From assembly GCF_002848265.1 (NCBI RefSeq), contig NZ_CP025422.1, forward strand, positions 62,001 through 126,000: a DNA stretch of 64,000 bases, read 5' to 3'. This document shows, piece by piece, positions 11,249 through 31,359 of this stretch; the stretch's first letter is position 1; each line of letters begins with the position of its first letter. The notes beneath the pieces were generated by a model, which was not told the DNA's origin, ran no database searches, and saw only the letters and a program-made list of their open reading frames with translations. Position numbers and translations under genes: made by a program. This stretch comes from Zhihengliuella sp. ISTPL4 (lineage in GTDB: Bacteria > Actinomycetota > Actinomycetes > Actinomycetales > Microbacteriaceae).

Positions 11249-12406
11249 ATGGACAGCGACGTCATCGTCATCGGACTCGGAGCAGCCGGTTCCGCCGCAC
11301 TCCGTGCAGCCGCACGACGCGGCGTGCGCTGCCTCGGCATCGAGCAGTTCGACATCGCCCACGACCGGGGCTCCTCCCACGGCCGCTCGCGTCTGTTCCG
11401 CAGCGGCACCTCCGAGGGCCCGGAGTACGTCGACCTCGCCGCCCGGTCCCGTCAGCTCTGGAGCGAGCTCGAGCAGGAGACCGGCGAGGAGATCGTCACG
11501 GTCGTCGGCGGCCTCAGCATCGCGGATGCCGGCTCGCCGCTGCTTTCCGACGTGCGCGCCGCCATGGACGCCCGGGACCTCCCGTACGAGACCCTCGACG
11601 CGGCGACGCTCCGGTCGCGGTACCCCCAGCATCATGTGACCGACGGCGATGTCGGGGTGCTCGATCCCGGCACGGGCGTCGTGCGCCCCGAGCTGGCGAT
11701 CCGCCTGAGCGTCGAGGCGGCACGGCGTGCGGGCGCCGAGGTGCGCACGGGTGTGCGGGCGGTCGACATCGCGGAGCGCGGCGACCGGGTCGAGGTGCGC
11801 CTCAGCGACGGATCGAGCGTCTCCGGCTCCCAGGTCGTGGTGGCCGCCGGCGCCTGGACCTCCCGACTGCAGCCGGACTATTCGGTGCCGCTCGTCGTCC
11901 GCCGCGCCGTGCTCAGCTGGTTCCACCCGCGCGAGGGGGCGGAGCACCGCTTCACGTCCGACGTGTTCCCGGTGTTCACCCGCGAGCTCGGCGACGTCAC
12001 CGGGTGGGGTGCTCCGGTGATCGACGAGTACGGCGTCAAGATCGGTCTGCACGACCAGGCCGGGTTTGAGATCGACGACCCGGCGGCGAACGACCCGGAG
12101 GTCGCGTCGTGGGAGCTGGAGCGGGTCGAGGCCTTCTGTGCCGCGCAGTTCGCCGACCTCGTCCCCGTCGCCCGACACGCCCGCGGCTGCATGATCACCC
12201 TGACCCCTGACGAGCGCTTCGCCATCGGCCGGCTCCAGCCGCAGTCCCGCATCGTCACCCTGGCCGCCTGCTCGGGCCACGGGTTCAAGCACTCGGCCGC
12301 CGTCGGCGAGCTCGGCGTGCAGATCGCCCTGGACGAGCAGCCGACCGTCGACCCGAGCCCGTTCGACCCCACCCGATACACCCACCAGAAAGAGGCAGTC
12401 CAATGA
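11249..12406 (+). CDS. FAD-dependent oxidase, sarcosine/fructosyl-amino-acid oxidase type
   Basis: A 385-residue flavoprotein of the DAO/monomeric sarcosine oxidase family, which oxidises secondary amines to imines with production of hydrogen peroxide. The N-terminal dinucleotide fold reads VIGLGAAGS. Cys314 in GCMITLTPDERF matches the cysteine that binds FAD covalently in this family, and CSGHGFKHS closes the flavin site. ATG 11249 follows AGGGGGA. The family includes sarcosine, N-methyltryptophan and bacterial fructosyl-amino-acid oxidases of this size. It starts a tight operon with an amino acid importer, sugar kinases, an aldolase and a reductase, which favours a glycated amino acid substrate. 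Substrate choice is inference. Confidence 0.88.
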   Translation: MDSDVIVIGLGAAGSAALRAAARRGVRCLGIEQFDIAHDRGSSHGRSRLFRSGTSEGPEYVDLAARSRQLWSELEQETGEEIVTVVGGLSIADAGSPLLSDVRAAMDARDLPYETLDAATLRSRYPQHHVTDGDVGVLDPGTGVVRPELAIRLSVEAARRAGAEVRTGVRAVDIAERGDRVEVRLSDGSSVSGSQVVVAAGAWTSRLQPDYSVPLVVRRAVLSWFHPREGAEHRFTSDVFPVFTRELGDVTGWGAPVIDEYGVKIGLHDQAGFEIDDPAANDPEVASWELERVEAFCAAQFADLVPVARHARGCMITLTPDERFAIGRLQPQSRIVTLAACSGHGFKHSAAVGELGVQIALDEQPTVDPSPFDPTRYTHQKEAVQ

Positions 12407-13281
12407 GAGGTAAGAAGCTGTTCAGCACGATGGCCGTGCTGCTCGCCGCATCGCTCGTCGCCGGCTGCGCCGGTCAGAGCTCCGCAGGCTCCGACGACGC
12501 GACCGAGGCCGACTCCGCATCCGCGAAGTACGAGACGGTGAGCCCGGGCGTCATCCAGCTGCTCGTCAACAGCGATGCGGCGCCGTTCGCGTCCGTCGGG
12601 GACGACGACGAGTTCGAGGGGTTCGACGTCGCGCTCCTCACCGAGGTCGCCGATCGTATCGGCGTCGATCTTGAGATCCGCACGCAGGAGTTCGACACCA
12701 TCCTGCCGACCGTCGCGATCGGACAGGCGGATGCCGCGGCGTCCTCCATCGCCGATACGGCGGAGCGCCGCGAGACGGTGACCTTTTCGCTGCCGACGTA
12801 CACCGGCGTGATGTCGATCACGGTCCCCACCGAGTCCGACGTCGAGGAGGCCGACGACCTCGCCGGCAAGAAGATCGGCGTGAAGTCCGCGAGCCGCAAC
12901 GCGGAGTACGCCGAGCAGTACTTCACGGAGTCCGAGCTCATCTACTTCCCCGCCGAGGCCCCGATGTTCAACGCCCTCCAGGCCGGCAACATCGATGCCG
13001 CGTTCTTCGACGGCCAGGCCGCCGACAAGTATGTGAACCAGTACGACGTGCGCATCGCCTTCTCGGCGGTCAACGACGACAACATCGGGGCGGCGATCGT
13101 GCTGCGTCAGGATGCCGATGAGCTGCGTGCCGCGATCAACGAGGCGCTGCGCGAGATCCTCGCCGACGGCACCTACGAGGAGATTTTCACCACCTGGGTG
13201 ACCACGGAGCCGGTGGAGCGTCAGCTGGACTTCCTCACCGGCTACTACGCCGACCACCCGGAAGACACCTATCCGAACTGA
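12403..13281 (+). CDS. Amino acid ABC transporter substrate-binding lipoprotein (family 3)
   Basis: A 292-residue periplasmic-type binding protein of the polar amino acid class. The lipobox is LVAGC with Cys22. The family-3 pattern is clear: FEGFDVALLTEVADRIGVDLE, IADTAERRE and KKIGVKSAS. The start overlaps the oxidase stop (ATGA), so import and oxidation are coupled. A strong hairpin follows before the permease gene. The ligand could be an amino acid, an opine or an Amadori compound; the operon favours one of the last two. Confidence 0.93.
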   Translation: MRGKKLFSTMAVLLAASLVAGCAGQSSAGSDDATEADSASAKYETVSPGVIQLLVNSDAAPFASVGDDDEFEGFDVALLTEVADRIGVDLEIRTQEFDTILPTVAIGQADAAASSIADTAERRETVTFSLPTYTGVMSITVPTESDVEEADDLAGKKIGVKSASRNAEYAEQYFTESELIYFPAEAPMFNALQAGNIDAAFFDGQAADKYVNQYDVRIAFSAVNDDNIGAAIVLRQDADELRAAINEALREILADGTYEEIFTTWVTTEPVERQLDFLTGYYADHPEDTYPN

Positions 13282-13287
13282 GTTCTC

Positions 13288-13323
13288 GAGGGAGGGGCGC
13301 CCGCCGTGGGCGTCCCCTCCCTC
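13288..13323 (+). other. Strong intercistronic stem-loop after the binding-protein gene
   Basis: GAGGGAGGGGCGCCC (13288-13302) pairs with GGGCGTCCCCTCCCTC (13308-13323) apart from one bulged T, with a 5-nt loop. There is no T-run, so it is more likely an mRNA-stabilising or attenuating element that lets the binding protein be made in excess of the permease and ATPase. Confidence 0.7.
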
Positions 13324-13341
13324 CCTGAGACGGGATGAGCC

Positions 13342-14100
13342 ATGAGCGACTTCTTCACCATGTTCTTCAACCTCGAGTACATGCTCGCGGTGCTGCCCGA
13401 CCTCATCGGGGTCGGACTCCTCAACACACTGATCCTCGCGGTCGCCGCCACGGTGATCGCGCTCGTGATCGGCATGCTCGTCGCGATGGCCCTCATCTCC
13501 CGCCACCGCTGGCTGCGCTGGCCCGCGCAGGGCTACATCGATCTGCTCCGCGGTCTGCCAACGATCCTCACGATCTTCCTCATCGGCCAGGGCCTGCCCT
13601 ACATGGGCTTCACGTTCCTCGGCACCAGCGCCTACCCCTACGGCATCGCCGCCCTCGGACTCATCGCCTCCGCCTACATGGCCGAGATCTTCCGCTCAGG
13701 CATCCAGAGCATCCACCACGGGCAGCTGGAGGCCGCGCGCGCCATGGGCATGCCCTACGGCCTCGCGATGCGCATGATCGTCATCCCCCAGGGAGTGCGC
13801 AACGTGTTCCCGGCGCTCACCAACCAGTTCATCAGCATCATCAAGGACACCAGTCTCGTGTACGTGCTCGGTCTGGCCCTCGGCGAGCGCGAGCTCTACC
13901 GCATCGGTCAGGACATGTCGCAGCGCGTCGGCAACCTGTCGCCACTGGTGGCCGCCGGCATCGTCTACCTCATCATCACCATCCCGCTCACGCACTACGT
14001 CAACTGGCTCGACCGCCGGCTGCGCACGGGGAAGATCCCCGTCGTCGCCGAAGAGCCCGCCGTCCCCGGCGACACCCCCACGAAGGCGGTCACCGCATGA
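13342..14100 (+). CDS. Amino acid ABC transporter permease
   Basis: A 252-residue permease of the HisM/GlnP family with several membrane helices and the conserved loop [21 protein letters not shown] followed by [10 protein letters not shown], typical of polar amino acid importers. It forms a homodimer or pairs with itself, as no second permease is present. The stop overlaps the ATPase start. A second ATG 21 nt upstream-adjacent in sequence (13335) lies in another frame and is not used. Confidence 0.93.
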
Positions 14101-14828
14101 ATCCTCTCGTCCGCATCGACGGCCTGGTCAAGGCGTTCGGCTCCCACACCGTGCTCAAGGGCATCGATCTCACGGTCGGGCAGGGGGAGGTCGTGTGCAT
14201 CATCGGCCCCTCCGGCTCGGGCAAGTCGACCCTCCTCCGCAGCATCAACCTCCTCGAGGTGCCCTCGGACGGCACGATCACGGTCGGGGACTCGGTCATC
14301 ACCGACCCGAAGACCGACATCAACGCCGTGCGAGCCCGCGTGGGCATGGTGTTCCAGAGCTTCAACCTCTTCCCGCACATGACGGTGCTCGAGAACATCA
14401 CGGTCTCGCTGCGGAAGGTGCGCGGGCTCTCCGCCGGCGAGGCGACCCGCATCGCCGAGGAGCGACTGGCCGACGTGGGTCTGTCGATGAAGGCGAGCAG
14501 TCGCCCGATCAGCCTCTCGGGCGGGCAGCAGCAGCGCGTCGCGATCGCCCGCGCGCTCGCCATGGAGCCCGAGCTCATGCTGTTCGACGAGGTGACCTCG
14601 GCGCTCGACCCCGAGCTGGTCAAGGGCGTGCTGAACATCATGTCGTCGCTGGCCGCGGGCGGGATGACGATGGTGGTCGTGACCCACGAGATGGGCTTCG
14701 CGCGTCAGGTCGCCGACCGCGTCGTCTTCATGGACGGCGGTGTGGTCGTCGAGGAGAACACGCCGGACGAGCTGTTCGGCAACCCGCAGTCCGAGCGACT
14801 TCAGCGCTTCCTCTCCGAGGTGCTGTAG
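14097..14828 (+). CDS. Amino acid ABC transporter ATPase
   Basis: A 243-residue ATPase of the GlnQ/HisP class. Walker A GPSGSGKS is at residues 37-44, followed by the Q-loop [15 protein letters not shown], signature LSGGQQQRV and Walker [13 protein letters not shown], then the switch histidine in VVTHEMGFA. It energises the preceding permease. Its TAG stop shares one base with the GTG start of the kinase gene, so the importer and sugar enzymes are one transcript. Confidence 0.95.
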
Positions 14829-15859
14829 TGACGCACCAGACGCCGCCGACGCCCGCGTGGTGGCCGGCCCCTTCCGACCTCCCGCTGATGGTTGTCGGCC
14901 CCAACCCGGCGATGGACCGTCTCCAGGTGATCGGACAGCTCGAGCCGGGAGCCGTGCACCGCGTGCGCACGGTCGCCGCACGGGCGGGCGGCAAGTCGTT
15001 CATCGTGGCGCGCAGCATCCGCGCCCTCGGCCCGCACGTCGAGCTGTTCGGCTTCCTCGGAGGAGCGGCAGGGCAACTCGCCCGGAAGGAGTGCACCGAG
15101 CTGGGGATGGGCGACCGGCATACCCCGATCGCCGCGGACACCCGCATCACCCCGGTCGTCGTCGAGGCGAAGACGGGTCGCAGCACCGTGTTCAACGAGC
15201 CGGGGCCGCCGCTCACGGCGGACGAGCAGGCCGCGTTCCGAGCGGCTGTCGACGACGCGCTCGTCGCAGGCCGTGTCGTGGTGTGCACGGGAAGCCTGCC
15301 GCCCGACCTCGAACCCGACACCTACGCTCGGATCGTGGGGGTGGCGAACGAGCGGGGGGCGTACGCCGCGGTCGACGCGAGCGGCACGGTCCTCCGCGAG
15401 ACGCTGGCCGCACATCCGTGGCTGGTGAAGTGCAACCGGCACGAGTTCGAGGGCGTCCTGAAAGAGGATGCCGAGCACGACGACGCCGCGATCCGCGAGC
15501 GCATGCGAGCGCTGGTCGCCGACGGCGTGGGCATCGTCATTGTCACGATGGGGGCGCGGAGCTTCCTCGTCGCGACGGCCGACGGCGTGTGGTCCGTGAC
15601 GGTCCCCACCGTGCCGACGGTGAACGCGACCGGCTCGGGAGACACGTTCCTCGCCGCGTTCATCGCTTCGGTCAAGCTAGGTGCGACCTTCGCCGATGCG
15701 CTCGCCGCGGCGGCCGCGGGTGGGGCATTCAACGCCGCACGACTCGAGCCGGGGTTGATCCCGGGCGCGGAGCTGGCTCCCCTCGCGGAGCAAATCGGTT
15801 TCACGCGGATCGACGGCGCCTCCGCGGCCCGGGCGACCGCCGAGGTCCGCAGCGCATGA
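14828..15859 (+). CDS. PfkB-family sugar kinase (1-phosphofructokinase/tagatose-6-P kinase-like)
   Basis: A 343-residue ribokinase-fold kinase. The N-terminal region NPAMDRLQVIGQLEPGAVHR resembles 1-phosphofructokinase and tagatose-6-phosphate kinase. The C-terminal PfkB signature is NATGSGDTF with the catalytic base Asp272. GTG 14828 overlaps the previous stop by one base; later ATG codons would remove the first strand. Followed by an FGGY kinase and a class II aldolase, it likely makes a ketose bisphosphate for cleavage. Confidence 0.85.
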   Translation: MTHQTPPTPAWWPAPSDLPLMVVGPNPAMDRLQVIGQLEPGAVHRVRTVAARAGGKSFIVARSIRALGPHVELFGFLGGAAGQLARKECTELGMGDRHTPIAADTRITPVVVEAKTGRSTVFNEPGPPLTADEQAAFRAAVDDALVAGRVVVCTGSLPPDLEPDTYARIVGVANERGAYAAVDASGTVLRETLAAHPWLVKCNRHEFEGVLKEDAEHDDAAIRERMRALVADGVGIVIVTMGARSFLVATADGVWSVTVPTVPTVNATGSGDTFLAAFIASVKLGATFADALAAAAAGGAFNAARLEPGLIPGAELAPLAEQIGFTRIDGASAARATAEVRSA

Positions 15860-17058
15860 GCGTGCATCTCGGCGTCGACATCGGGTCGACGAGGACCAAA
15901 CTCATCCTGTGGGACGAGACCGACAGTATCGTCGGGCGGGCGTCCGCGCCCACGCCCGTGGTGCGCGGAGCGGTCGATCGGCGAGATCACGAGGCGGTCT
16001 GGGGCGTCCTCACCGGGCTCGCCGCCGAGCTGCCGCCGTCGCTGCGGCGCGAGGTGGTCGCGGTCGCCGTCGCCTCCGTCGGCGAGGAGATCGTCCTGCT
16101 GTCGGAGGAGGGGCGCTCGCTGCGTCCCACCCCGTGCTGGTACACGCTGTCGCCTCTGCACACCGACGGCGATTCCGTGCGGCGCATCCTCAGCTGGCAG
16201 CTCTTCGCCGATCTGCGCGCCGCTGCTTCCGAGACGCTCTCGGACGCGGCATCCTTCACCGACCTCGGCAGCGGCATCACCATGCGGCTCGCCGGGCTCC
16301 CGGCCGCCGAGGCCGTCATGGACCGCTCCCACGCCTCGCGCACCGGCCTGCTCACCCCGGACGGGGATTGGGACGCCGACCAGCTGCGGGCCAGCGGCGC
16401 CGCCCTCGTGACCGCGCCGCCGCGACTGGTGGAGTCCGGCGCGCAGGTCGGGGTCATCGCCCCCGACGTGGCGGAGGCGTGGGGTCTGCCCCACGGCGTC
16501 CGCATCCACGCCGGAGGCCACGATCATTTCTGCGGCGCGCTCGCCGCCGGTGTCCGTCGAGCGGGTGACGTGTTCGTCTCGGTCGGCACCTCCGAGTCGA
16601 TCGTGCAGCTGATCGACCGCGCCCGGCTGCGGACGATCGAGGATCCCGGCGAGCACGGGTTCTACGTCGTCGGCGGGCTGGGCTACCTGCACCGATCGCA
16701 GCCCTCTGGCCGCGAAATCGCGGGCCTGCTCGAGACGCACCGCGGTCCCGACATCGCCGACCTCTACGCCGAGATCGCCGGCTCCGGCGGCGCGTCGATC
16801 TCGCCCGCCGCGACCGCGCTCGACGCGGCGCTCCGCCGACAGGCGCAGAGCTCGGCCGAGCTGGTCGCCGTCCTCACGAGGACCTCCGGCGTGCCGGCCC
16901 GACGCATCGTCATCGGGGGAGTCCCGGTGACCTCTCCGCACTGGCGGGAGCTACGTCGCCGCGCACTCGACGGAGAGGTCGAATTCATCTACGAGCCCGA
17001 GCTTGCGGGCACGGGTGCGGCGATGCTCGCGGCCACGACGACGGAGAACGAACGATGA
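15856..17058 (+). CDS. FGGY-family carbohydrate kinase, short form
   Basis: A 400-residue kinase of the FGGY (xylulokinase/gluconokinase) superfamily, about 100 residues shorter than most members. The first phosphate loop VDIGSTRTKLILWDE is at the N-terminus. The second domain has GGHDHFCGALAAG, VSVGTSESI and RIVIGGVPVTS. The start overlaps the PfkB stop (ATGA) and the stop overlaps the aldolase start. It probably phosphorylates the free sugar released or imported in this pathway; which carbon is phosphorylated is unknown. Confidence 0.85.
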   Translation: MSVHLGVDIGSTRTKLILWDETDSIVGRASAPTPVVRGAVDRRDHEAVWGVLTGLAAELPPSLRREVVAVAVASVGEEIVLLSEEGRSLRPTPCWYTLSPLHTDGDSVRRILSWQLFADLRAAASETLSDAASFTDLGSGITMRLAGLPAAEAVMDRSHASRTGLLTPDGDWDADQLRASGAALVTAPPRLVESGAQVGVIAPDVAEAWGLPHGVRIHAGGHDHFCGALAAGVRRAGDVFVSVGTSESIVQLIDRARLRTIEDPGEHGFYVVGGLGYLHRSQPSGREIAGLLETHRGPDIADLYAEIAGSGGASISPAATALDAALRRQAQSSAELVAVLTRTSGVPARRIVIGGVPVTSPHWRELRRRALDGEVEFIYEPELAGTGAAMLAATTTENER

Positions 17059-17900
17059 CCGTGCACACCACGGCCGCGCTGATCGAGGGATCGGCGGATG
17101 CCGGCCGCGCGGCGGCGGCGTTCAACGTCGTCCAGCTCGAGCACGCGCAGGGGATCGTCGACGGAGCGGAGCGCGCCGGGCATCCCGTAATCCTCCAGCT
17201 GAGCGAGAACACGATCGGCTACCACGGAGGCCCCCGGGCCATCGCCCGTGGCATGCGCGAGGTCGCCGAGTCCGCCGGGGTGCCCGTGGCGCTGCACCTC
17301 GACCACGTCACGAGCTACGAGCTCTGCGCCCGCACGGCCGACCTCGGATTCTCGTCGTTCATGATCGACGCGGCCTCGCTGCCCTACGACGACAACGTGG
17401 CGCTCACGGCTCGCACGGTCGAGATGGCGGCGGCGGACCGACTCTGGGTCGAGTCCGAGCTCGGCGAGGTCGGCGGGAAGGGTGCGCATCAGTCCGGTGC
17501 GCGCACGTCTCCCGACGAGGCCGCGGCGTTCGTCGCAGCCACGGGCATCCACGGTCTCGCCATCGCGATCGGCTCCTCGCACGCGATGAGCGAGAAGACC
17601 GCGACGCTTGATCTCGATCTGCTGACGCGCATCGGCGCGCAGGTCGAGGTGCCGCTCGTGCTGCACGGCTCTTCCGGCGTGCGCGACCAGGATCTGCTAG
17701 CGGCGACCCGCCGCGGCATCCGCAAGGTGAACGTCGGCACCCAGCTCAATCTGGCGTTCACGCAGGCCGTGACCGACGTGCTCGCGAAGCAGCAGCCCCG
17801 CGGGGGCGACCCCCGCATCTACATCGGCGCCGGTCGCGCCGCCATCGCCCATCAGGTGGAGCGCGTGCTCCACCTGCTCGCCGCCGAATCCGCGGCGTGA
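17055..17900 (+). CDS. Class II ketose-bisphosphate aldolase
   Basis: A 281-residue zinc aldolase of the fructose/tagatose-bisphosphate type. The zinc-site motif HLDHV contains His81 and His84 with catalytic Asp83. ESELGEVGGKG and the phosphate-binding LHGSSGV are also present, with NVGTQLN near the end. It would split a ketose 1,6-bisphosphate (or a 1-phosphate) into dihydroxyacetone phosphate and an aldehyde. Position after two kinases supports this. Overlap with the FGGY stop is ATGA. Confidence 0.92.
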   Translation: MTVHTTAALIEGSADAGRAAAAFNVVQLEHAQGIVDGAERAGHPVILQLSENTIGYHGGPRAIARGMREVAESAGVPVALHLDHVTSYELCARTADLGFSSFMIDAASLPYDDNVALTARTVEMAAADRLWVESELGEVGGKGAHQSGARTSPDEAAAFVAATGIHGLAIAIGSSHAMSEKTATLDLDLLTRIGAQVEVPLVLHGSSGVRDQDLLAATRRGIRKVNVGTQLNLAFTQAVTDVLAKQQPRGGDPRIYIGAGRAAIAHQVERVLHLLAAESAA

Positions 17901-17917
17901 CCACGAAAGGAACCCCT

Positions 17918-18934
17918 ATGACACCGTCACTGCCCACCGTCCCGCTCGGGACGACCGGGATGGAGATCACCCGCGTCGGCCTCGGCGCGTTCGCGATCGG
18001 CGGCCCTGCCTGGTCCTATGGCTGGGGAGCGCAGGACGACGACGACTCGATCCGCACCATCCGCGCGGCGGTGGATCGCGGGATCAACTGGATCGACACG
18101 GCGGCGGTGTACGGCCGCGGCCACTCCGAGGTCGTCGTCGGTCGCGCCCTGCGCGATCTGCCGCAGAACGAGCGGCCCTGGGTCTTCACCAAGGGCGGAC
18201 TCGTGTGGTCGGAGGACGACGCGCTGCAGACCGGCGAGCGCAAGGTGGGCGATCCCGCCTCGCTGCGGCGCGAGGTGCAGGACTCGCTGCGACGGCTTCA
18301 GGTCGAGCAGATCGACCTTTACCAGATGCACTGGCCCGCCGAGGACGGATCCGAGGTCGAGGACTACTGGGGCGCTCTCGTCGAGATGCGCGACAGTGGA
18401 CTGCTGAAGGCGATCGGCCTCTCGAATCACGACGTCGCCCAGCTGGATCGCGCCGAGGCCATCGGACATGTCGACACCCTCCAGCCGCCGTTCTCGGCCA
18501 TCTACCGCGACGCGGCGGCCGACGTGCTGCCGTGGTGCGCGCACCATGCGACCGGCGCGATCATCTACAGCCCGATGCAGTCGGGCCTGCTCACGGGGCG
18601 CATCACCGAGGAGCGCGTGGCGCAGCTCCCCGCCGACGACTGGCGCTCCCGGCATCCCGACTTCTCGGGCGATCGCCTGCGGCAGAACCTGCGGGTGACG
18701 GCTGCGCTCGCCGAAGTGGGCGAGCGGCACGGCATCTCCACCGGGGCAGCCGCGATCGCCTGGGCGCTAGTCTTCCGGGGCGTCAGCGGCGCGATCGTGG
18801 GGGCGCGGACGCCGGAGCAGATCGACGGCTGGGTGAACGCCGGGTCCGTGGAACTGACCGCCGACGACATCGCCTCCGTGGCTCGTGCGATCCGCGATTC
18901 CGGAGCGGGGTCGGGCCCGGACGCGCCTCGCTGA
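17918..18934 (+). CDS. Aldo/keto reductase
   Basis: A 338-residue NADPH-type aldo/keto reductase. The catalytic tetrad can be read as Asp60, Tyr65 (NWIDTAAVYG), Lys92 (FTKGGL) and His138 (QMHWP). ATG 17918 follows GAAAGGA by 6 nt; a GTG at 17897 overlapping the aldolase stop is possible but lacks that site. It is the last gene of the operon. With the oxidase at its start, it could reduce the dicarbonyl sugar (glucosone) released from an Amadori compound to fructose; this is inference. Confidence 0.9.
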   Translation: MTPSLPTVPLGTTGMEITRVGLGAFAIGGPAWSYGWGAQDDDDSIRTIRAAVDRGINWIDTAAVYGRGHSEVVVGRALRDLPQNERPWVFTKGGLVWSEDDALQTGERKVGDPASLRREVQDSLRRLQVEQIDLYQMHWPAEDGSEVEDYWGALVEMRDSGLLKAIGLSNHDVAQLDRAEAIGHVDTLQPPFSAIYRDAAADVLPWCAHHATGAIIYSPMQSGLLTGRITEERVAQLPADDWRSRHPDFSGDRLRQNLRVTAALAEVGERHGISTGAAAIAWALVFRGVSGAIVGARTPEQIDGWVNAGSVELTADDIASVARAIRDSGAGSGPDAPR

Positions 18935-18956
18935 GGAGTCTGCTCCGCGCAGACGG

Positions 18957-18984: not shown

Positions 18985-19063
18985 TCCCGCCGAGCCTGCG
19001 GATGCCGGACACCTACCCCTGCTAGCTTGTCCGTATCCCAGGACGGCAGTGCGGAGCAAGACC

Positions 19064-19870: not shown

Positions 19871-19910
19871 GTTTTTTATTTGCTTGATCGTCTATCGGTT
19901 GTTTTAGACT
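19871..19910 (+). promoter_or_regulatory. Promoter region of second oxidase operon with GTTT motifs
   Basis: An AT-rich patch holds GTTTTTTATTTG (19871-19882) and TTGTTTTAG (19899-19907). The 8-mer TTGTTTTA also occurs in the operator at 26431-26451. A -10 candidate TAGACT lies at 19905-19910, with TTGATC (19884-19889) as a loose -35 at a 15-nt spacing. Binding by the DeoR protein encoded just upstream is plausible. Confidence 0.5.
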
Positions 19911-23219: not shown

Positions 23220-23260
23220 GTCATGATCGACCCTCGCACGGGCGCTCCGCGACCGTGCGG

Positions 23261-23266
23261 TAGCCT
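23261..23266 (+). promoter_or_regulatory. -10 box of a leaderless LacI transcript
   Basis: TAGCCT ends 7 nt before the GTG at 23274, the spacing expected if transcription begins at the start codon. There is no usable ribosome site. Confidence 0.55.
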
Positions 23267-23273
23267 ACGAGGC

Positions 23274-24452: not shown

Positions 24453-24507
24453 TTGACGTCGTCCGGACGCCTCTGTTAGTTTTCATCGAAAGTGAGAACG
24501 TTCTCAC
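24453..24507 (+). promoter_or_regulatory. Promoter and 16-bp palindromic operator of the SIS-kinase operon
   Basis: The -35 is TTGACG (24453-24458); the -10 candidate is TTAGTT (24476-24481). A perfect 16-bp palindrome GTGAGAACGTTCTCAC (24492-24507) lies at about the transcription start. The AACGTT centre is shared with the operator at 3789-3800. An inverted repeat GGATCGG/CCGATCC (24411-24417, 24430-24436) upstream could end the LacI transcript. Confidence 0.75.
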
Positions 24508-24532
24508 AAGATGATCTCCCGGAAGGTTCGCA

Positions 24533-25564
24533 ATGACTAAGGTGCTCACGCCGCTTCGCCCGATCGAGGCCGACCTCGTCTCCACGCTGGAGGGCGCCGT
24601 CTCCCAGCGAGGTCTGACGCAGCAGATCGCCGCCGACGTGCGCGGGCGCGGCATCACCCGCATCCTGTTCGTCGGCATGGGTGGCTCCTGGGCCTCGTCG
24701 GTGCCGGTCGCCCTGCAGTTGCAGCTCTCCCGCCTCCCGATCCCGACCTTCAACCTCAACGCCGCCGAGTTCAACGCCCAGTACGTACTGAACGTGGGTG
24801 CCACCGACCTCGTCGTCGCAGCCTCGCACTCCGGCGGCACCCCCGAGACCGTCCTCGCCGCCCAGACCGCCAAGGAAAAGGGCGCACTCGTCGTCTCCCT
24901 TGCGATCGGCGCCGACAACGACCTCGCCGCGGCCGCGGACCACTCCCTCGTCTACGGCAGCGACCGCAGCATCACCAGCGCCAAGTACGTGCTGCTGACC
25001 GAGCTCGCGTACTCGATTCTGGAGGCCGCCGGCATCTCCGACGACGTCGAGGCGGGGCGAACCGCTCTCGACGGCATCCCGCAGGCGACGCTCGACGCGA
25101 CCGAAGCCTACGAGGATCACCTGGCCGAGATCGCCGCCTCGTACGGATTCGCCGACAACGTGTTCGTGCTCGCATCGGGCAACCTCACGGGCCTCGCCTA
25201 CCTGCTCTCGGTCTGCTACCTCGTCGAGATGCAGTGGAAAAAGTCCACGCACTTCACCACCGGCGACTTCTTCCACGGCCCGTTCGAGCTCGCGCAGAAC
25301 AACCAGCCGTACATCCTCTTCTCGGGCCAGGACGCCACGCGTGCTCACGCCGAGCGGGCGATCACGTTCCTCGACCAGTACAACGCCAACTACCGGGTGC
25401 TCGACGTCGCGCAGTTCGAGCTGCCGGGCATCGAGGCGTCCAGCCGCGCCCTCGTCCAGCACATCCCGACGGCCTCGATCACGATGCGCCTGGCCGACCA
25501 CTTCGAGTCCGTGACCGGGCACGACCTGGACGAGCGTCGCTACATGCACCGGGTCGCGTACTGA
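24533..25564 (+). CDS. SIS-domain deglycase/isomerase, FrlB-like
   Basis: A 343-residue protein with two sugar isomerase (SIS) domains. The first has FVGMGGSWASS and ASHSGGTPETV (phosphosugar binding). The second half contains TTGDFFHGPFELAQ and ends DERRYMHRVAY, a pattern I associate with fructoselysine-6-phosphate deglycase (FrlB) and the related GfrF. That enzyme splits a 6-phosphorylated Amadori compound into glucose-6-phosphate and the free amino acid. ATG 24533 follows GGAAGG. A PfkB kinase gene begins 3 nt after its stop, the order kinase-deglycase pairs usually have. A plain glucosamine-type isomerase is the alternative. Confidence 0.82.
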   Translation: MTKVLTPLRPIEADLVSTLEGAVSQRGLTQQIAADVRGRGITRILFVGMGGSWASSVPVALQLQLSRLPIPTFNLNAAEFNAQYVLNVGATDLVVAASHSGGTPETVLAAQTAKEKGALVVSLAIGADNDLAAAADHSLVYGSDRSITSAKYVLLTELAYSILEAAGISDDVEAGRTALDGIPQATLDATEAYEDHLAEIAASYGFADNVFVLASGNLTGLAYLLSVCYLVEMQWKKSTHFTTGDFFHGPFELAQNNQPYILFSGQDATRAHAERAITFLDQYNANYRVLDVAQFELPGIEASSRALVQHIPTASITMRLADHFESVTGHDLDERRYMHRVAY

Positions 25565-25567
25565 TCC

Positions 25568-26416
25568 ATGACGCTCTCGATGTGCGCGATCGGCGACAAC
25601 GTCCTCGATCGCTATCCCCAGGAAGGGCTCGCGTTCCCCGGAGGCAGCGCGACCAACGCTGCGGTGTTCGCGAGCCGCCTGGGGGTGTCGTCCGCCTACA
25701 TCGGCATCGTCGGCTCCGACGCCAGCGCCCGATTCATCGAGGAGTGCCTCGAGGCGGAGGGCGTGGACGCCTCGCGCGTGCAGCGTCAGGATGGCCCGAA
25801 CCCGACGACGGACGTTGTGGTCGACGACGACGGCAACCGCCGATTCATCGCCCACACGCCGCCCGAGGCGACGCTGCGCCTGAGGGATGACGACCTGCAG
25901 TTCCTGCGGGGGGTGGACTGGATCCACACGGGTCACAGCAGCTATGTGGAGCACGAGCTCGACCGCATGGCGACGCTGGCTCCGATCTCCTTCGACTTCT
26001 CGAAGCGGGATCTGGACTACGCCGCTCCGCTGCTGCCGCTGGTCGCCGTCGCCACGTTCTCGCGGGACGACGTCGCGTACGACGAGTGCGTCGAGCTGCT
26101 GCATGCGGCCGTCGGACTCGGCGCGGGGTTCGCGCTCGTGACGCGCGGTGCGCAGGGCGCCGTCGCGATGACGCAGGGCACGGTGGTCGAGCAGGCCGCG
26201 AAGCCCACCCGGGTCGTCGACACGATCGGGGCCGGCGACGCGTTCCAGACCTGCCTGCTGACGGAGCTGCTGCGGGGCCAGGACCCGCAGGCCGCTCTGG
26301 ACTCCGCAAGTTCGTTCGCGGCTGAGACCTGCACCTATCGTGGATCGTTCGGCCACGAGCGGATGCTGTCGGAGTTCGCGACGAGGGCCGGTAATGGCCC
26401 TATTGACAGGGCTTGA
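25568..26416 (+). CDS. PfkB-family carbohydrate kinase, FrlD-like
   Basis: A 282-residue ribokinase-fold kinase with the short form typical of fructoselysine 6-kinase (FrlD). The N-terminal signature region is FPGGSATNAAVFASRLG; the C-terminal signature TIGAGDAF carries the catalytic Asp224. It begins 3 nt after the SIS gene, so the two are co-translated. The expected reaction is ATP-dependent 6-phosphorylation of the imported glycated compound, giving the substrate of the SIS protein. Assignment to the FrlD subgroup is inference from context and size. Confidence 0.83.
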   Translation: MTLSMCAIGDNVLDRYPQEGLAFPGGSATNAAVFASRLGVSSAYIGIVGSDASARFIEECLEAEGVDASRVQRQDGPNPTTDVVVDDDGNRRFIAHTPPEATLRLRDDDLQFLRGVDWIHTGHSSYVEHELDRMATLAPISFDFSKRDLDYAAPLLPLVAVATFSRDDVAYDECVELLHAAVGLGAGFALVTRGAQGAVAMTQGTVVEQAAKPTRVVDTIGAGDAFQTCLLTELLRGQDPQAALDSASSFAAETCTYRGSFGHERMLSEFATRAGNGPIDRA

Positions 26417-26451
26417 ATTAACGTGTTTATCTTTGTTTCAGTTTGTTTTAC
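26403..26451 (+). promoter_or_regulatory. Promoter and repeated GTTT operator of the polyamine/opine-type ABC operon
   Basis: TTGACA (26403-26408) overlaps the end of the kinase gene; TTTATC (26426-26431) is a moderate -10 at 17 nt. Right after it, 26431-26451 fits CTTTGTTTnnnTwTGTTTTrC, matching 16 of 21 positions with 11197-11217. The motif covers the expected start site, which suits repression, probably by the DeoR protein. Confidence 0.6.
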
Positions 26452-26528
26452 CAGCGGCGCAAGGTAGCGCCGGGGGCTTGGAAAGCGTGATCGGAACCCG
26501 CTGACACGCGCGAAAGGTGAGGTATGCA

Positions 26529-27644
26529 ATGAATGCACGAATGAGGAAGGGGCTCGCCGCCACCGGTCTGGCGCTGACGACCGCCGTCGTCCTCGCCGGA
26601 TGCTCGACGGGCGGCGACGCAGGAGCCGATCAGGAGCTCGACCTGGCACCCGCGGTCGCCGGCGAGATCGAGTCGGACGTTCTCGACGGCATCACGCTCG
26701 TCTACGCCGGGAACGGCGGCATCACCCAGGAGGGTCAGGACACGGCGATCTGGCAGCCGTTCGGCAAGGAGTCGGGCGCCGTCGTCGAGCAGGACGCCTT
26801 CGAGCTGACGAAGCTGCGTGCGATGGTCGACTCCGGCAACGTGGACTGGAACATGGTCGTGTCGTCGGCGATCGAGGTCGAGCGTTACTGCGGCGAGCTC
26901 TACGAGGAGATCGATCCCGACAAGGTCGACCTGTCGAAGGTGCCCGAGGGCACGCTGGCCGGTGACTGCATGGTTCCGAACATCTTCTACGGCTACGTCG
27001 TCGCGTACAACGCCGACACGTATGGCGACAACGCCCCGCAGACGGCGGCCGACTTCTTCGACACCGAGAAGTTCCCCGGCAAGCGCGGTGTTCCCGTGAC
27101 GCCGTGGATGGAGGCTCCGGCGGTCGAGTTCGCGATGGTCGCGAACGACGCAGACTTCGACGACCTGACTCCGGAGGACTTCACCGCCGGTCTCGAGGCC
27201 TACAGCGCGCTGGGCTCCGACCTGGTGCCGTGGACCAGCGGTGCGCAGTCCCAGCAGCAGCTCGAGAGCGGCGAGGTCGACATGGCCCTCGTCTGGAGCG
27301 GTCGGGGCTATGGGGCGGCCAACGCCGGCGCACCCATCGTGCCGATGTGGGGCGAGTGGGTCATCGCGGTCGACGGCATCGCGGTGCCCAAGGGCTCGGC
27401 GAACGTCGACGCGTCGTTCGCGGCGATCAACTACATGCTCGGCGCCGACCAGCAGGCCGCAGCGAGCGAGCTGACCTCGTACGCACCGGTCAACGTCGAC
27501 GCGAAGCCGGCGGTGTCCGAGCCCCTGACCGACTGGCTCGTCTCCGACCACCTCGACACCGGTCACGCGGTTTCCATCGACTACTGGGTCGAGAACTGGG
27601 ACCAGTTCTCCGCCGAGTGGGCCGACTGGGTCGCCGGGAGCTGA
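26529..27644 (+). CDS. Polyamine/opine-type ABC transporter substrate-binding lipoprotein
   Basis: A 371-residue binding protein of the PotD/PotF class. The lipobox is VLAGC with Cys25. The motifs LVYAGNGGITQEGQD, FYGYVVAYNADTYGDNAP and SQQQLESGEVDMALVWSG are typical. ATG 26529 is chosen because GAGG ends 6 nt upstream; GTG 26517 would include that site. It starts a four-gene importer operon plus an FrlC-like epimerase. Related importers carry spermidine, putrescine and, in Agrobacterium, opines of the mannopine type, which are close to Amadori compounds. Confidence 0.9.
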   Translation: MNARMRKGLAATGLALTTAVVLAGCSTGGDAGADQELDLAPAVAGEIESDVLDGITLVYAGNGGITQEGQDTAIWQPFGKESGAVVEQDAFELTKLRAMVDSGNVDWNMVVSSAIEVERYCGELYEEIDPDKVDLSKVPEGTLAGDCMVPNIFYGYVVAYNADTYGDNAPQTAADFFDTEKFPGKRGVPVTPWMEAPAVEFAMVANDADFDDLTPEDFTAGLEAYSALGSDLVPWTSGAQSQQQLESGEVDMALVWSGRGYGAANAGAPIVPMWGEWVIAVDGIAVPKGSANVDASFAAINYMLGADQQAAASELTSYAPVNVDAKPAVSEPLTDWLVSDHLDTGHAVSIDYWVENWDQFSAEWADWVAGS

Positions 27645-27649
27645 CACAC

Positions 27650-28570
27650 GTGAACGTCACGGCGAACCAGACCGAGACCGAGCGCATCCAGCTCGTCGGC
27701 AAGGCAGGCTCCGGTTCACCGCGCGGACGGGAGGGGTGGCGCGACGCATCGCGTCACCTCTTCCTCACAGCGCCGGCCTTCCTGCTCATCACGCTGTTCT
27801 TCATCTTCCCGATCATCGTGGTGATCGTCGTGAGCGTGACCGACCCGGAGTTCGGCTTCCAGAACTACGCCTGGGTGTTCACCTCGCCGCTCGCGCTCAA
27901 CTCGGCGCTGACGACGTTCGTGATCTCCCTCAGCGTCACCCTCATCTGCCTGCTCCTGGCCTACCCGTACGCGTATTTGATGACCATCGTCTCGGATCGG
28001 ACGCGGGGGATCATGACCATGCTGGTGATGGTGCCGCTGTGGACCAGCATCCTGGTCCGCACGCTGGCCTGGGTCGTGCTGCTGCAGGACTCCGGCCCCA
28101 TCAACGCGTTCTTCGAATCGGTCGGCATCGGGCACGTGCAGCTCATCCGCACGCCGCTCGGCGTCGCGATCGGCATGGCCCAGGTGCTCATGCCGTTCAT
28201 GGTCATGCCCCTCTACTCCTCGCTGTCGCGCATCGAGCCGAGACTCGTCCCGGCCGCGCAGAGCCTGGGTGCGAAGCCGCTCGTCGCGTTCTTCAAGGTG
28301 TTCCTGCCGCTCTCGAAGCCGGGCATCTTCTCCGGCTCCATCACCGTCTTCATCCTGGCGCTCGGCTTCTACATCATCCCGTCTCTTCTGGGGTCGCCGA
28401 AGGACCCGATGTTCCCGTCGCTGATCCAGCTCCAGGTGAGCGGATTCCTCCAGTGGGGGCGCGGTACGGCCCTCGGCGTGTGCCTGCTGGCGGCGGCGCT
28501 GCTCGCGCTGTTCCTGGTGACGAAGCTCACCAAGAGCGGCTTCACGATCCCGGGAGCGCAGAACCGATGA
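27650..28570 (+). CDS. Polyamine/opine-type ABC transporter permease (PotB-like)
   Basis: A 306-residue permease with about six membrane helices; the first is FLLITLFFIFPIIVVIVVSV. The docking loop is RLVPAAQSLGAKPLVAFFKV, matching the EAA motif. GTG 27650 is chosen: it lies 5 nt after the binding-protein stop with GGGAG upstream. Its stop overlaps the next start. It pairs with the following permease. Confidence 0.92.
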   Translation: MNVTANQTETERIQLVGKAGSGSPRGREGWRDASRHLFLTAPAFLLITLFFIFPIIVVIVVSVTDPEFGFQNYAWVFTSPLALNSALTTFVISLSVTLICLLLAYPYAYLMTIVSDRTRGIMTMLVMVPLWTSILVRTLAWVVLLQDSGPINAFFESVGIGHVQLIRTPLGVAIGMAQVLMPFMVMPLYSSLSRIEPRLVPAAQSLGAKPLVAFFKVFLPLSKPGIFSGSITVFILALGFYIIPSLLGSPKDPMFPSLIQLQVSGFLQWGRGTALGVCLLAAALLALFLVTKLTKSGFTIPGAQNR

Positions 28571-29352
28571 GACTCAAGAGCGTCCTCTCCGTCTTCGCTG
28601 TCATCCTCGTCGCGTGGCTGATCCTGCCGACGCTGGTGCTCGTGCCAATCTCGTTCAGCGAGAAGGCGTCGTTCAACTTCCCGTCGCAGGGATTCTCGTT
28701 CCAGTGGTACGAGAACTTCTTCAACGACCGCTCCTGGGTGCGCTCCACCGTGCTGTCGCTCCAGATCGGCCTGACAGTGACCGCGATCTCCGTGGTCGCC
28801 GGGACGCTCGCGGCGTTCGGCCTATCGAAGCTGCGGTTCCGCGGCCGCTCCCTGATCGAGAACTACCTGCTGACACCGATGATGGTGCCCGGCGTGGTGC
28901 TGGCGATCGGCCTTTACTCGGTCTTCCTCCAGTACGGGCTGCTGGGGACCTTCGCCGGCTTCGTCCTCGCGCACACCGCCCTCGCACTGCCGCTCGTGAT
29001 CCTCAACGTCGGCACCAGCATCCAGGGGCTCGACAACCGCCTCGAGCTCGCCGCGGCGAGCCTGGGCGCGAACCGCGTCACGACGTTCTTCAAGGTCACT
29101 CTGCCGCTGATCGCGCCCGGTGTGATCGCGGGCGCCGTGTTCGCTTTCGTGACCTCCTTCGATGAGGTCATCGTCTCCCTGTTCATCCAGTCCCCGGGGC
29201 TCCAGACCCTTCCCGTCAAGATCTACCGAAGCGTCACGCAGGACACCGACCCGACGGTGGCTGCGGTCGCCGTGCTGGTGACGGTGCTCTCCGTCGTCAT
29301 CATCGGCATCGCGCAGTCCCTCACCGGACGCAAGAGAAAGGCTCGGTCATGA
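28567..29352 (+). CDS. Polyamine/opine-type ABC transporter permease (PotC-like)
   Basis: A 261-residue permease of the PotC/PotI class. Helices alternate through the chain, and the docking loop is LELAAASLGANRVTTFFKVTLPLI, followed by AFVTSFDEVIVSLFIQSPG, a signature of this subfamily. ATGA overlaps occur at both ends, with the PotB-like stop and the ATPase start. Confidence 0.93.
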   Translation: MRLKSVLSVFAVILVAWLILPTLVLVPISFSEKASFNFPSQGFSFQWYENFFNDRSWVRSTVLSLQIGLTVTAISVVAGTLAAFGLSKLRFRGRSLIENYLLTPMMVPGVVLAIGLYSVFLQYGLLGTFAGFVLAHTALALPLVILNVGTSIQGLDNRLELAAASLGANRVTTFFKVTLPLIAPGVIAGAVFAFVTSFDEVIVSLFIQSPGLQTLPVKIYRSVTQDTDPTVAAVAVLVTVLSVVIIGIAQSLTGRKRKARS

Positions 29353-30494
29353 GCAACACCTCGATCAAGGCCGCCGTCGTGGACGGCGCGCAGGACGCAG
29401 ATGCCGCGCGCGCCGATGCGAGCAGGGGCATCACGCTCCTCGGCCTGGAGAAGAAGTACGGATCGACGGCGGTCGTCAAGTCGATCGACCTTGAGATCCG
29501 CCCCGGCGAGTTCATGACGTTCCTCGGTCCGAGCGGCTCGGGGAAGACCACGACGCTCAACATGATCGCCGGCTTCACGACCGCGTCGAGCGGCAGGTTG
29601 GAGATCGACGGACGCTCGGTCGCGAACGTTCCCCCGCACAAGCGCGACATCGGCATGGTGTTCCAGAGCTACGCGCTGTTCCCGCACATGGACGTGTTCG
29701 CGAACATCGAGTTCCCCCTCCGCCGTCGCCGGGTGCCGAAGGCGCAACGCACGGCCATGGTGCGGGACGCGCTCGAGATGGTGCGCATGACGGAGTACCG
29801 GGACCGTCTTCCCTCGGAGCTCTCGGGCGGGCAGCAGCAGCGCATCGCCCTGGCCCGCGCCCTGGTGTATCAGCCCGAGGTGCTCCTTATGGACGAGCCT
29901 CTCGGCGCGCTCGACAAGAAGCTGCGGGACTGGCTCCAGTCGGAGATCAAGCGCATTCACCAGGAGGTGGGGTCCACGTTCGTCTACGTGACGCACGACC
30001 AGGAGGAGGCCCTGTCGCTGTCCGACCGCATCGCCGTGTTCAACAACGGCAACATCGAGCAGGTCGGGACGGGCGAGGAGCTGTACGAGCGCCCGAAGAC
30101 CCTGTTCGTCGGCACCTTTTTGGGGGAGTCGACCGTGTTCCGCGGCACCGTCGTCTCGCGTGACGCCGGCGAGGTCGACATCCAGTCCGGCCCCGCCCTG
30201 CTGCGCGCCCGAGGAACGATCGAGGGCGACGACGCGGCGATCCTCGTCCGTCCCGAGAACCTCCGGCTGCTCCCCGCCTCGGCCGTGCGCGCCGCCAGCG
30301 CGACGGGCGACGGCGTGGAGGTCACGGTGCTGTCGGCGACCTACCTCGGTTCGGCCTGGCGCCACACGGTGCGGCTGCCCGACGGCAGCACCGGCCTCGT
30401 CCGCGGGCCGCGAACGAGCGACGACCTCGCGGTCGGCGACCAGGCGTGGCTCGAGTGGGACACGGCGAACGCCGTGCTCCTCCCCGCCGACTGA
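29349..30494 (+). CDS. Polyamine/opine-type ABC transporter ATPase (PotA-like)
   Basis: A 381-residue ATPase. Walker A GPSGSGKT is at residues 60-67, with Q-loop FQSYALFPHMDVFANI, signature LSGGQQQRI, Walker B LLMDEPLGALD and switch YVTHDQEEA. A C-terminal TOBE-type regulatory domain follows (about residue 280 on). The first 27 residues are a non-conserved extension. It completes the importer and precedes the epimerase by 25 nt. Confidence 0.94.
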   Translation: MSNTSIKAAVVDGAQDADAARADASRGITLLGLEKKYGSTAVVKSIDLEIRPGEFMTFLGPSGSGKTTTLNMIAGFTTASSGRLEIDGRSVANVPPHKRDIGMVFQSYALFPHMDVFANIEFPLRRRRVPKAQRTAMVRDALEMVRMTEYRDRLPSELSGGQQQRIALARALVYQPEVLLMDEPLGALDKKLRDWLQSEIKRIHQEVGSTFVYVTHDQEEALSLSDRIAVFNNGNIEQVGTGEELYERPKTLFVGTFLGESTVFRGTVVSRDAGEVDIQSGPALLRARGTIEGDDAAILVRPENLRLLPASAVRAASATGDGVEVTVLSATYLGSAWRHTVRLPDGSTGLVRGPRTSDDLAVGDQAWLEWDTANAVLLPAD

Positions 30495-30519
30495 CCATCC
30501 CACCGAACGGACGACCACT

Positions 30520-31359
30520 GTGACACTCGACGCCTCGCAGATCACCGGAACGAACTTCGTTTACCAGAACTTCGCCTTCGAGCGCTGCCTCGACGACATG
30601 GTCGAGCTCGGGCGCGAGCGCATCGAACTGTGGGGAATCGCGCCGCACCTGCACATCCCGGTCGCGACGGATGCCGATGTGCGGCGCCTGCGTCAGCAGA
30701 TGTCCGATCGCGGGCAGCGGCTGTACTGCTTGACCCCGGAGCAGGTGATGTACCCGGTGAACCTTGGGTCGGACGTCGGGTGGCTGCGCGAGTCCAGCAT
30801 CGCGATGTTTCGCCGCGCCGCGGAGATCTGCGCCGAGCTCGACGGAGAGGTGCTGTTCCTCACGCCGGGGCGTGGCCGGGAGGACGAGGACCCTGCCGAG
30901 CCGTGGAAGCGCTCGATCGACGGTCTGCACCAGGTCGTGGAGTATGCCTCGACCCTCGGCATCCGCTGCGTCGTGGAGTCGTTACAGCGCAGCGAGTCGA
31001 ACCTCGTCTTCGATCTCGAGTCGCTGGTGCGCCTCGACCGCGACGTCGACCACTCGAACATGACGATCGCGCTAGACACGGTGGCGATGGCCGCAGGGGG
31101 TGACACGGTCGAGGGGTACTACGCGGCGTTCGGCGACCGCATCACCCACGTGCACCTCGTCGACGGCGCACCCTCCGGGCATCGCGCCTGGGGTGATGGC
31201 GAACTGCCCCTCGCAGATTACCTGCGCGTTCTCGAACGGCACGGCTACGACGGGATGATGTCGTTCGAGATCTTCGGTGCGGCGTACTCGCGGGAGCCGC
31301 TCGCCGCGCACCGCCAGTGCCAGGATGCCGTGAGTGCCGCCCTGGCGTCCTGGCCATAG
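30520..31359 (+). CDS. TIM-barrel sugar epimerase/isomerase, FrlC-like (copy 2)
   Basis: A 279-residue protein, the same length as its paralog at 21154. Shared blocks are ITGTNFVYQNFAF, IELWGIAPHLHIPV, CLTPEQVMYPVN, SLQRSESNLVF and HVHLVDGAPSGH. One metal-site difference is visible: copy 1 has LEPLQ where this copy has VESLQ, keeping the Glu. GTG 30520 is chosen because it gives the same N-terminus as copy 1. It is the last gene of the polyamine/opine-type importer operon, which suggests it acts on the imported compound. Confidence 0.82.
   Translation: MTLDASQITGTNFVYQNFAFERCLDDMVELGRERIELWGIAPHLHIPVATDADVRRLRQQMSDRGQRLYCLTPEQVMYPVNLGSDVGWLRESSIAMFRRAAEICAELDGEVLFLTPGRGREDEDPAEPWKRSIDGLHQVVEYASTLGIRCVVESLQRSESNLVFDLESLVRLDRDVDHSNMTIALDTVAMAAGGDTVEGYYAAFGDRITHVHLVDGAPSGHRAWGDGELPLADYLRVLERHGYDGMMSFEIFGAAYSREPLAAHRQCQDAVSAALASWP

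Follow-up and report, generated by a model that had tools for sequence, protein, structure and literature searches.

Stacked gene blocks proposed to serve catabolism of ketosyl amino acids in Zhihengliuella sp. ISTPL4

Gene content of the locus

The window analyzed here is a 64,000-nucleotide stretch (contig NZ_CP025422.1, positions 62001–126000) of the genome of Zhihengliuella sp. ISTPL4, which consists of one contig of 3.53 Mb with a G+C content of 70%. Gene calls together with Pfam and NCBIfam scans place 20 genes within window positions 11249–31359. All of them are on the plus strand, and neighbouring genes often overlap or almost touch each other in an operon-like manner. A first-pass annotation had described this range as a candidate system that degrades Amadori compounds (glycated amino acids or amines) by two parallel routes. 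The genes it listed are present: two oxidases, two ATP-binding cassette (ABC) importers, a SIS protein with an FrlD-like kinase, a pair of FrlC-like epimerases, further sugar kinases, an aldolase, and an aldo/keto reductase (AKR). It counted three sugar regulators and overlooked a third flavoenzyme (Amino_oxidase, 21990–23219). Only two of the regulators are within the range, namely a DeoR-family protein (19049–19852) and a LacI (23223–24359); the third is a LacI at 2578–3651.

The 20 genes are separable blocks stacked upon one another and do not make a single 20-kb unit. Block A contains OxA, SBP_3, permease, ATPase, PfkB, FGGY, aldolase, AKR, and DeoR genes, and block B contains LacI, FrlB-like SIS, FrlD-like kinase, and PotDBCA-type importer genes. 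An operon with the second oxidase, OxB, lies between them. The catabolic system extends to the left beyond 11249 and beyond the window edge. We think it reasonably likely that these genes are part of an island that breaks down ketosyl amino acids by two routes, the substrates being Amadori compounds, for example fructosyl amino acids. C3 epimers of Amadori compounds are probably substrates as well.

Relatives were collected from 199 Microbacteriaceae genomes including our own (hereafter the family) and from a sample of the order. Their genomic stretches are labelled L###, with genes assigned by tblastn, and genomes are labelled G###, where G000 is the own genome.

Oxidase block and its importer

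Block A starts with OxA (11249–12406; Pfam DAO, 153 bits), an oxidase dependent on flavin adenine dinucleotide (FAD). It is followed by a SocA-like substrate-binding protein (SBP_3, 12403–13281), the importer permease (13342–14100) and ATPase (14097–14828), the PfkB kinase (14828–15859), the divergent FGGY sugar kinase (15856–17058), a class II aldolase of the fructose/tagatose-bisphosphate type (17055–17900), the AKR (17918–18934), and DeoR, of which the nearest models are GlpR and AgaR, both below their cut-offs. The PfkB kinase groups with E. coli FruK (1-phosphofructokinase) in the kinase tree with a support of 97 in the Shimodaira–Hasegawa-like approximate likelihood ratio test (SH-aLRT). 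The nearest NCBIfam model of the AKR is YdjG (methylglyoxal reductase), below cut-off. All nine block-A genes recur in L043 and L044, which belong to two other genera of the family; AKR and OxA of L043 are 70% and 56% identical to those of the window. SIS was not found at E ≤ 1e-25 in the L043 and L044 genomes. Hence, block A can stand alone. Outside the family, the block was unseen in 16 OxA-branch loci from the order. The AKR was tried as a marker of block A and rejected, as its close relatives lie mostly outside the block (12 loci in 11 genomes).

The importer of block A resembles that of the soc operon on Agrobacterium fabrum plasmid pAtC58 (socR, socABCD; substrate deoxyfructosyl-glutamine), in which we assume the names socA–D from gene order. 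The substrate-binding protein is 35% identical to SocA, and the permease and ATPase are 57% and 66.5% identical to the respective halves of SocB; for comparison, the permease of plasmid pRAO166b is 32% identical. The LacI proteins of the window are 39–41% identical to SocR. A quick tree built from 22 permeases, with long outgroup branches, joins the window permease and SocB in a clade of 17 rows (96 SH-aLRT), where L043 is the sister of the window permease (99) and L044 lies close by (86). SocB itself belongs to a subclade of 13 rows (99); the block-A permeases are not part of it and make up a separate group alongside, and importers without oxidase (L155, L156, and L157) are also among the 17 rows; the block-A importer is thus Soc-related and not strictly SocB. 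Its kinship agrees with the link between the OxA-adjacent amino acid importer and Amadori compounds made in the first-pass annotation, and points to Amadori compounds as the putative cargo. PMC8262997 describes santhopine as the Amadori compound of fructose and glutamine, places soc genes in Rhizobiaceae, Microbacteriaceae, and Micrococcaceae, and reports that isolates carrying soc or nic genes broke down the corresponding compounds, apart from a single exception in the case of nicotine.

OxB (20006–21157) is 42% identical to OxA. The first-pass annotation had put both in the sarcosine/fructosyl-amino-acid-oxidase family; membership of the SocD family is not supported. BLASTP of OxA and OxB against A. 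fabrum SocD gave no match at 1e-5, and in a 49-row tree (ultrafast bootstrap/SH-aLRT) the SocD orthologues form a distant clade (100/100). A SocD relative was not found in the own genome at E ≤ 1e-25, a threshold passed in 16 of the 199 family genomes, eight of them with close relatives (46–55%). The same tree puts OxA with G002 and G129 (98/92), with OxB (98/87), and with the pZXY group (99/96), in a 28-row clade that excludes MSOX, SolA, and TrSOX (100/99). When 11 order-level rows were added in a 60-row quick tree, the branch comprised 27 rows (94), OxA stayed with G002 and G129 (88), and a 39-row clade with OxA and OxB remained without MSOX, SolA, and TrSOX (99). A separation from sarcosine enzymes is seen in both trees.

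The substrate pocket of OxA and OxB was compared with that of monomeric sarcosine oxidase in MSOX numbering. Cys315, which we take to be the covalent-FAD position, as we assume the MSOX roles of the other residues, is kept in both oxidases together with Lys265 and Lys348. SocD lacks the Cys and the Lys at positions 315 and 265. In both oxidases Tyr254 is changed to Trp; Tyr55 is Thr in OxA and Gly in OxB, and Tyr317 is Ile and Val, respectively. Phe256 is replaced by Ala in OxA. Arg52 and Glu57 are kept in OxA and are Lys and Gln in OxB. Two family rows outside the branch, L028 and L034, keep Tyr55, Tyr254, Phe256, His269, and Tyr317. OxA and OxB thus share the fold family and the Cys315 and Lys265 positions with monomeric sarcosine/N-methyl-L-tryptophan oxidase, and differ from it in belonging to a separate branch, near but outside these enzymes, with a changed pocket as predicted from the alignment. 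The changed pocket argues for another substrate, one that bears an amino-acid carboxylate, without proving its identity.

These oxidases could instead serve the catabolism of sarcosine or N-methyl amino acids within a creatinine/N-methylhydantoin pathway to which the left-hand genes for hydantoinase, NCS1 permease, and isochorismatase-type hydrolases would also belong. We regard this as very unlikely. Such a role would agree with the best solved relatives of OxA and OxB, which are sarcosine oxidases, and with the NCBIfam model NF008425 (N-methyl-L-tryptophan oxidase), where OxA and OxB score 342 and 320 bits over a cut-off of 257. The NF008425 scores and the retention of His269 in both oxidases and of Phe256 in OxB speak against Amadori substrates. 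On the other side stand the well-supported split from MSOX, SolA, and TrSOX and the differing pocket residues; moreover, sugar kinases, aldolase, and reductase would be left without a role.

We then inspected the neighbours of related oxidases and importers. Relatives of the permease at E ≤ 1e-70 occur in 16 of the 199 family genomes (20 genomes at 1e-45), in eight beside SocD and in five beside an OxA-branch oxidase (own, G002, G129, G035, and G053). L204 from the order has SocR (45%), an OxA-branch oxidase, SocA (67%), and importer in one row, which indicates that the OxA branch stands in the place of SocD. L206, also from the order, has oxidase, SocA (49%), and importer together. The oxidases of L204 and L206 fall with those of pZXY, L017, L022, L199, and L208 (93 SH-aLRT, 60-row tree). 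Seven family rows are apart from this group (93), and six of the seven lack such context. Among the 16 order-level OxA-branch loci, two have a Soc-related importer, five (L194–L198) an adjacent Pot-type importer, and two (L199 and L200) a Pot-type match that is either weak or far away.

Three side observations concern this branch. L194–L198 come from five genomes of one genus, in which an OxA relative (44–47%) lies beside a convergent polyamine-type ABC importer. L126 on Arthrobacter plasmid pZXY22 (CP017423.1) has LacI, oxidase, Soc-related importer, and glutaminase close together, possibly a fructosyl-glutamine operon. To the left of the window, G000:C1:46136-46483 (in L012) is a decayed oxidase duplicate, 91% identical to residues 17–132 of OxA.

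Deglycase-kinase pairs and ring-opening enzymes

Block B comprises LacI (41% to SocR), the SIS protein (24533–25564), the FrlD-like 6-kinase of the PfkB family (25568–26416), and an importer with PotD-like polyamine/opine-type substrate-binding protein (26541–27644), PotB-like (27650–28570) and PotC-like (28567–29352) permeases, and PotA-like ATPase (29349–30494). The best solved relative of SIS is 3eua (153 bits, vs 25 for GlmS), which is annotated as a putative fructose-aminoacid-6-phosphate deglycase and which we take to be B. subtilis FrlB. SIS groups with FrlB/GfrF and apart from GlmS/AgaS in a 37-row quick tree, in which GlmS/AgaS and E. coli FrlB have long branches and FrlB is basal. 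The kinase groups with E. coli FrlD (99 SH-aLRT), apart from RbsK, FruK, PsuK, and YihV. The phylogenetic placement proposed as a check by the first-pass annotation thus favours deglycase and 6-kinase families. The SIS motifs are present, namely Glu232 of EMQW, His248 of FHGP, and C-terminal RRYM-V-Y; the Glu and His are presumably catalytic in FraB, for which a literature passage was looked for and not found. The order LacI-SIS-FrlD-PotDBCA is seen again in L001, L002, and L075, the last of which probably comes from the genome that also supplied L002; no FrlC or OxA/OxB match was found in these stretches. Blocks A and B are therefore each conserved in the family, as the neighbourhood check asked, and apart from each other.

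Two FrlC-like epimerases, both TIM barrels recognized by Pfam and NCBIfam scans, lie at 21154–21993, after OxB, and at 30520–31359, after the PotDBCA importer. FrlC is their best NCBIfam model (139 and 119 bits). FrlC-like genes (E ≤ 1e-50) occur in four of the 199 family genomes including the own, and in each of the other three SIS is no more than about 10 kb away. The third flavoenzyme in the OxB-FrlC operon matches 4-methylaminobutanoate oxidase 7rt0 over its full length (157 bits); it could cleave a glycated gamma-aminobutyrate or amine at the nitrogen's opposite side.

The Raoultella plasmid pRAO166b (NZ_CP041389.1, L125) has the order LacI-SIS-PfkB-amino-acid importer-TIM barrel, its SIS being 43% identical to that of the window; Klebsiella plasmids also carry SIS matches of about 43%. 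Further right in the window, 43272–51198 holds one more ABC importer and, after it, additional genes that resemble sugar enzymes, as judged from translated starts alone.

The pairing of an oxidase with a kinase and deglycase in one locus is recurrent. L076, L077, and L078 have SocA, SocB-type importer, SocD, FrlD, and SIS colinear with a divergent SocR, and in L087/L161 and L088/L162 SIS/FrlD and SocD are within about 10 kb. Hence, five of eight close family SocD loci have SIS/FrlD, and L228 of another family brings the number to six. A rough estimate, with 20 SIS places spread over about 660 Mb, gives about 0.005 of them expected by chance within 10 kb of eight loci. L223, a 5-kb contig, holds SocR, SocA, permease, SIS, and FrlD, with SocD unseen. 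The first-pass annotation knew of no cluster with this full set; the pairing of both routes nonetheless has parallels among these relatives. A literature search poor in subscription papers revealed no described cluster with both routes by title or abstract start. The Soc-FrlD-SIS clusters of L076–L078 have the true SocD, whereas the present locus has oxidases of the other branch and a gene set that could lead to trioses.

We also compared the locus with characterized systems. Like the soc operon, it combines LacI, an amino-acid-type importer, and a DAO-superfamily FAD oxidase; unlike soc, it has no SocD orthologue, block A has DeoR instead of LacI, and AKR, FGGY, FruK-type kinase, and aldolase replace SocC (Gfo/Idh). 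From E. coli frlABCDR, which handles fructoselysine, it has relatives of the deglycase (SIS 25%), the 6-kinase (FrlD 32%), and the 3-epimerase (FrlC 26–30%). It differs from frl in having an ABC importer for FrlA, LacI for FrlR, two deglycase/kinase pairs, and epimerases apart from the SIS-kinase pair. B. subtilis frlBONMD, for alpha-glycated amino acids, is alike in ABC importer and SIS, and its importer is presumably of another family. PMC12632257 sets oxidase routes against kinase routes and assigns B. subtilis to the latter.

The left module starts outside the window with NCS1 permease, SIS2, FrlD2, and HyuA, which runs into the window and is followed by HyuB (1–2568, plus strand for both). 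Then come LacI (2578–3651, minus strand; 39% to SocR), an Opp-type importer (4041–9195, plus strand) of SBP_5, two permeases, and a fused double ATPase, and an adjoining gamma-glutamyltranspeptidase-family protein (9227–10828, plus strand) below the TIGR00066 cut-off. SIS2 and FrlD2 are a second deglycase/kinase pair in one operon with HyuA and HyuB. The latter belong to a two-subunit ATP-dependent cyclic amide hydrolase (hydantoinase/lactamase) family; they score 613 and 252 bits with caprolactamase CapA and CapB, below the equivalog cut-off of 1000, and 550 and 294 bits with N-methylhydantoinase 7hk5. L221 of another family holds LacI (55%), Opp, a partial FrlC-like match (33%), SIS (76%), FrlD (56%), HyuA (76%), and HyuB (81%) in one cluster. 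L003, L004, and L005 have SIS-FrlD-RbsACB-type importer-HyuA-HyuB, and L055 has HyuA-HyuB-oxidase-Opp. Thus, both ways of sugar removal attach to one ring-opening family. The 7hk5 match and L055 would also suit the sarcosine and creatinine pathway mentioned above; the tie of HyuAB to SIS and FrlD in L003, L004, L005, and L221 is not explained by creatinine breakdown. HyuB matches at E ≤ 1e-60 occur in 17 of the 199 family genomes; six were examined beyond the own and G033, nine being left out. HyuB was rejected as a family marker of the Amadori link, as SIS is missing from the stretch in these six further HyuAB loci; the link is based on L003–L005, L221, and the own genome.

A tentative extension, which we put forward as a possibility below even chances, is that the island includes a pathway for glycated lactams or hydantoins, such as N-fructosyl-5-oxoproline, and forms with blocks A and B one co-regulated system with three entry routes. 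The Opp importer would take up the glycated compound, and HyuAB would open the ring at the expense of ATP to free the nitrogen as a secondary amine. Only then would FrlD-like kinase and SIS (in L055, the OxA-branch oxidase) split the sugar from the amino acid. Fructosyl-pyroglutamate was not found in a literature search with limited full text.

To the left of the window, G000:C1:48523-53426 (L012) encodes a dihydropyrimidinase-like protein, two isochorismatase-type hydrolases (NCBIfam nearest RutB/biuret hydrolase), and, by eye, a RidA-like protein. It is possible that these genes belong to a neighbouring hydantoin or pyrimidine pathway.

Shared sites and proposed pathways

The heptamer TTTGYTT occurs six times in the window (mean 0.46 and largest 3 in 50 dinucleotide shuffles), and all six sites are in promoters. 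Three are in the OxA promoter (11170–11219; at 11170 on the minus strand, 11198, and 11213), one is 5′ of OxB (19879–19885), and two are 5′ of the PotD operon within a 21-bp motif (26431–26451) whose counterpart at OxA spans 11197–11217. The two promoters are identical at 16 of 21 positions, a level matched by none of 60 shuffles. The third genomic match of the motif, with three mismatches, is 5′ of the OxA remnant in L012, where TTTGYTT also occurs once, in the remnant's promoter. A larger similarity of the OxB promoter beyond the single heptamer was considered and rejected, as its 21-mer matches are no better than in shuffles. L044 has TTTGYTT five times (shuffle mean 1.7), four in the PfkB-DeoR gap and one just before OxA. 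The heptamer is absent from L001, L003, L004, and L005 and occurs only at the edge of L002. As to SIS, the perfect palindrome TGAGAACGTTCTCA (24493–24506) lies 5′ of the gene and has no second copy in the genome when up to one mismatch is allowed, and GAACGTTC is found within about 110 bp 5′ of SIS in seven of seven genes examined (window, SIS2, and L001–L005). The TTTGYTT sites suggest common control of OxA, OxB, and the block-B importer, and DeoR and LacI may bind at these candidate operators.

The shared sites bear on whether blocks A and B are merely two unrelated adjacent systems, with block B for an Amadori compound and block A for a different N-substituted amino acid, for instance a mannityl opine or other sugar-amine. 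That each block occurs alone elsewhere, that their importers and regulators differ, that half of the family's branch oxidases lack such context, and that the block-A permeases group beside the SocB subclade would all be expected from such an arrangement. It does not account for true SocD with SIS/FrlD in six loci, nor for TTTGYTT common to the promoters of OxA, OxB, and the block-B importer and lacking in the FrlD-PotD gaps of L001 and L002. We consider two unrelated systems rather unlikely. The proposal of both routes in one 20-kb locus accordingly stands in that oxidase and kinase/deglycase co-occur repeatedly in relatives and operator-like sites link the blocks; it fails in that the blocks are separable and the range was drawn too small.

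Several further observations weigh against the proposed dual-route island. SIS is below the cut-off of the NCBIfam FrlB model (80 vs 430 bits) and hence not an equivalog of the E. coli protein; the FrlD-like kinase (145 vs 247) and both epimerases (cut-off 305) are likewise below their models. The FGGY kinase has weak matches to xylulokinases and is too divergent to name. AKR relatives at E ≤ 1e-80 occur in 15 other family genomes, two with block A, one (G033) next to an oxidase locus in which the aldolase is cut, one (G027) beside an amino-acid importer, and 10 in neither setting, G124 being left out. OxB is no longer placed as sister of OxA once order-level rows are added. The Soc-related importer is without SocD or OxA-branch oxidase in three of the 16 genomes (G003, G024, and G085). 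Eight of 16 branch oxidases in the family tree have no block gene nearby except weak generic matches, and seven of the 16 order-level loci have neither importer type; hence, the OxA branch is not only an amadoriase branch. L043 has TTTGYTT twice, one between oxidase and DeoR, with no excess over the shuffle mean of 1.8. The 21-bp pattern matches its two sites perfectly by construction, because it was made from them, and its three genomic matches at up to three mismatches compare with two of a reversed control pattern.

OxA relatives (E ≤ 1e-60) and SIS2 relatives (E ≤ 1e-35) are absent from all nine congeners in the order sample, so the island looks accessory. This fits catabolism and disagrees with repair or detoxification of glycated metabolites, a purpose that deglycase, amine oxidases, and an AKR nearest to a methylglyoxal-reductase model might otherwise suggest. 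Three ABC importers and dedicated regulators with candidate operators also argue for food use, and we give repair hardly any credence.

For the favoured dual-route catabolic island, we infer every reaction, substrate, and regulator-site pairing from the gene content, family placement, conserved blocks, and shared sites observed. In the oxidative route, the Soc-related importer would take up a ketosyl amino acid, and OxA would oxidize the C–N bond, so that the amino acid is released along with H2O2 and glucosone, a 2-keto-aldose. The AKR would reduce glucosone to a ketohexose, FGGY and FruK-type PfkB kinases would convert it to hexose 1,6-bisphosphate, and the class II aldolase would split the latter to trioses. 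In the phosphorylating route, the PotDBCA-type importer would take up a glycated amine, FrlC-like enzymes would convert C3 epimers, the FrlD-like kinase would phosphorylate O-6, and the SIS deglycase would release hexose 6-phosphate and amine. LacI would control SIS/FrlD via TGAGAACGTTCTCA, and DeoR is the probable regulator that acts through the TTTGYTT sites on OxA, OxB, and the block-B importer. The island is a stacked and probably co-regulated one, resembling soc and frl, with a non-SocD oxidase and possibly a ring-opening branch.

The locus provides a concrete model for actinobacterial feeding on Maillard products and Amadori opines, with a proposed route from left-over glucosone down to trioses. 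Hydantoinase-type ring opening tied to FrlB/FrlD enzymes would be a new step if shown. For enzyme screening, the oxidase branch would be useful as a group without relation to SocD whose members may use glycated amino acids as substrates.

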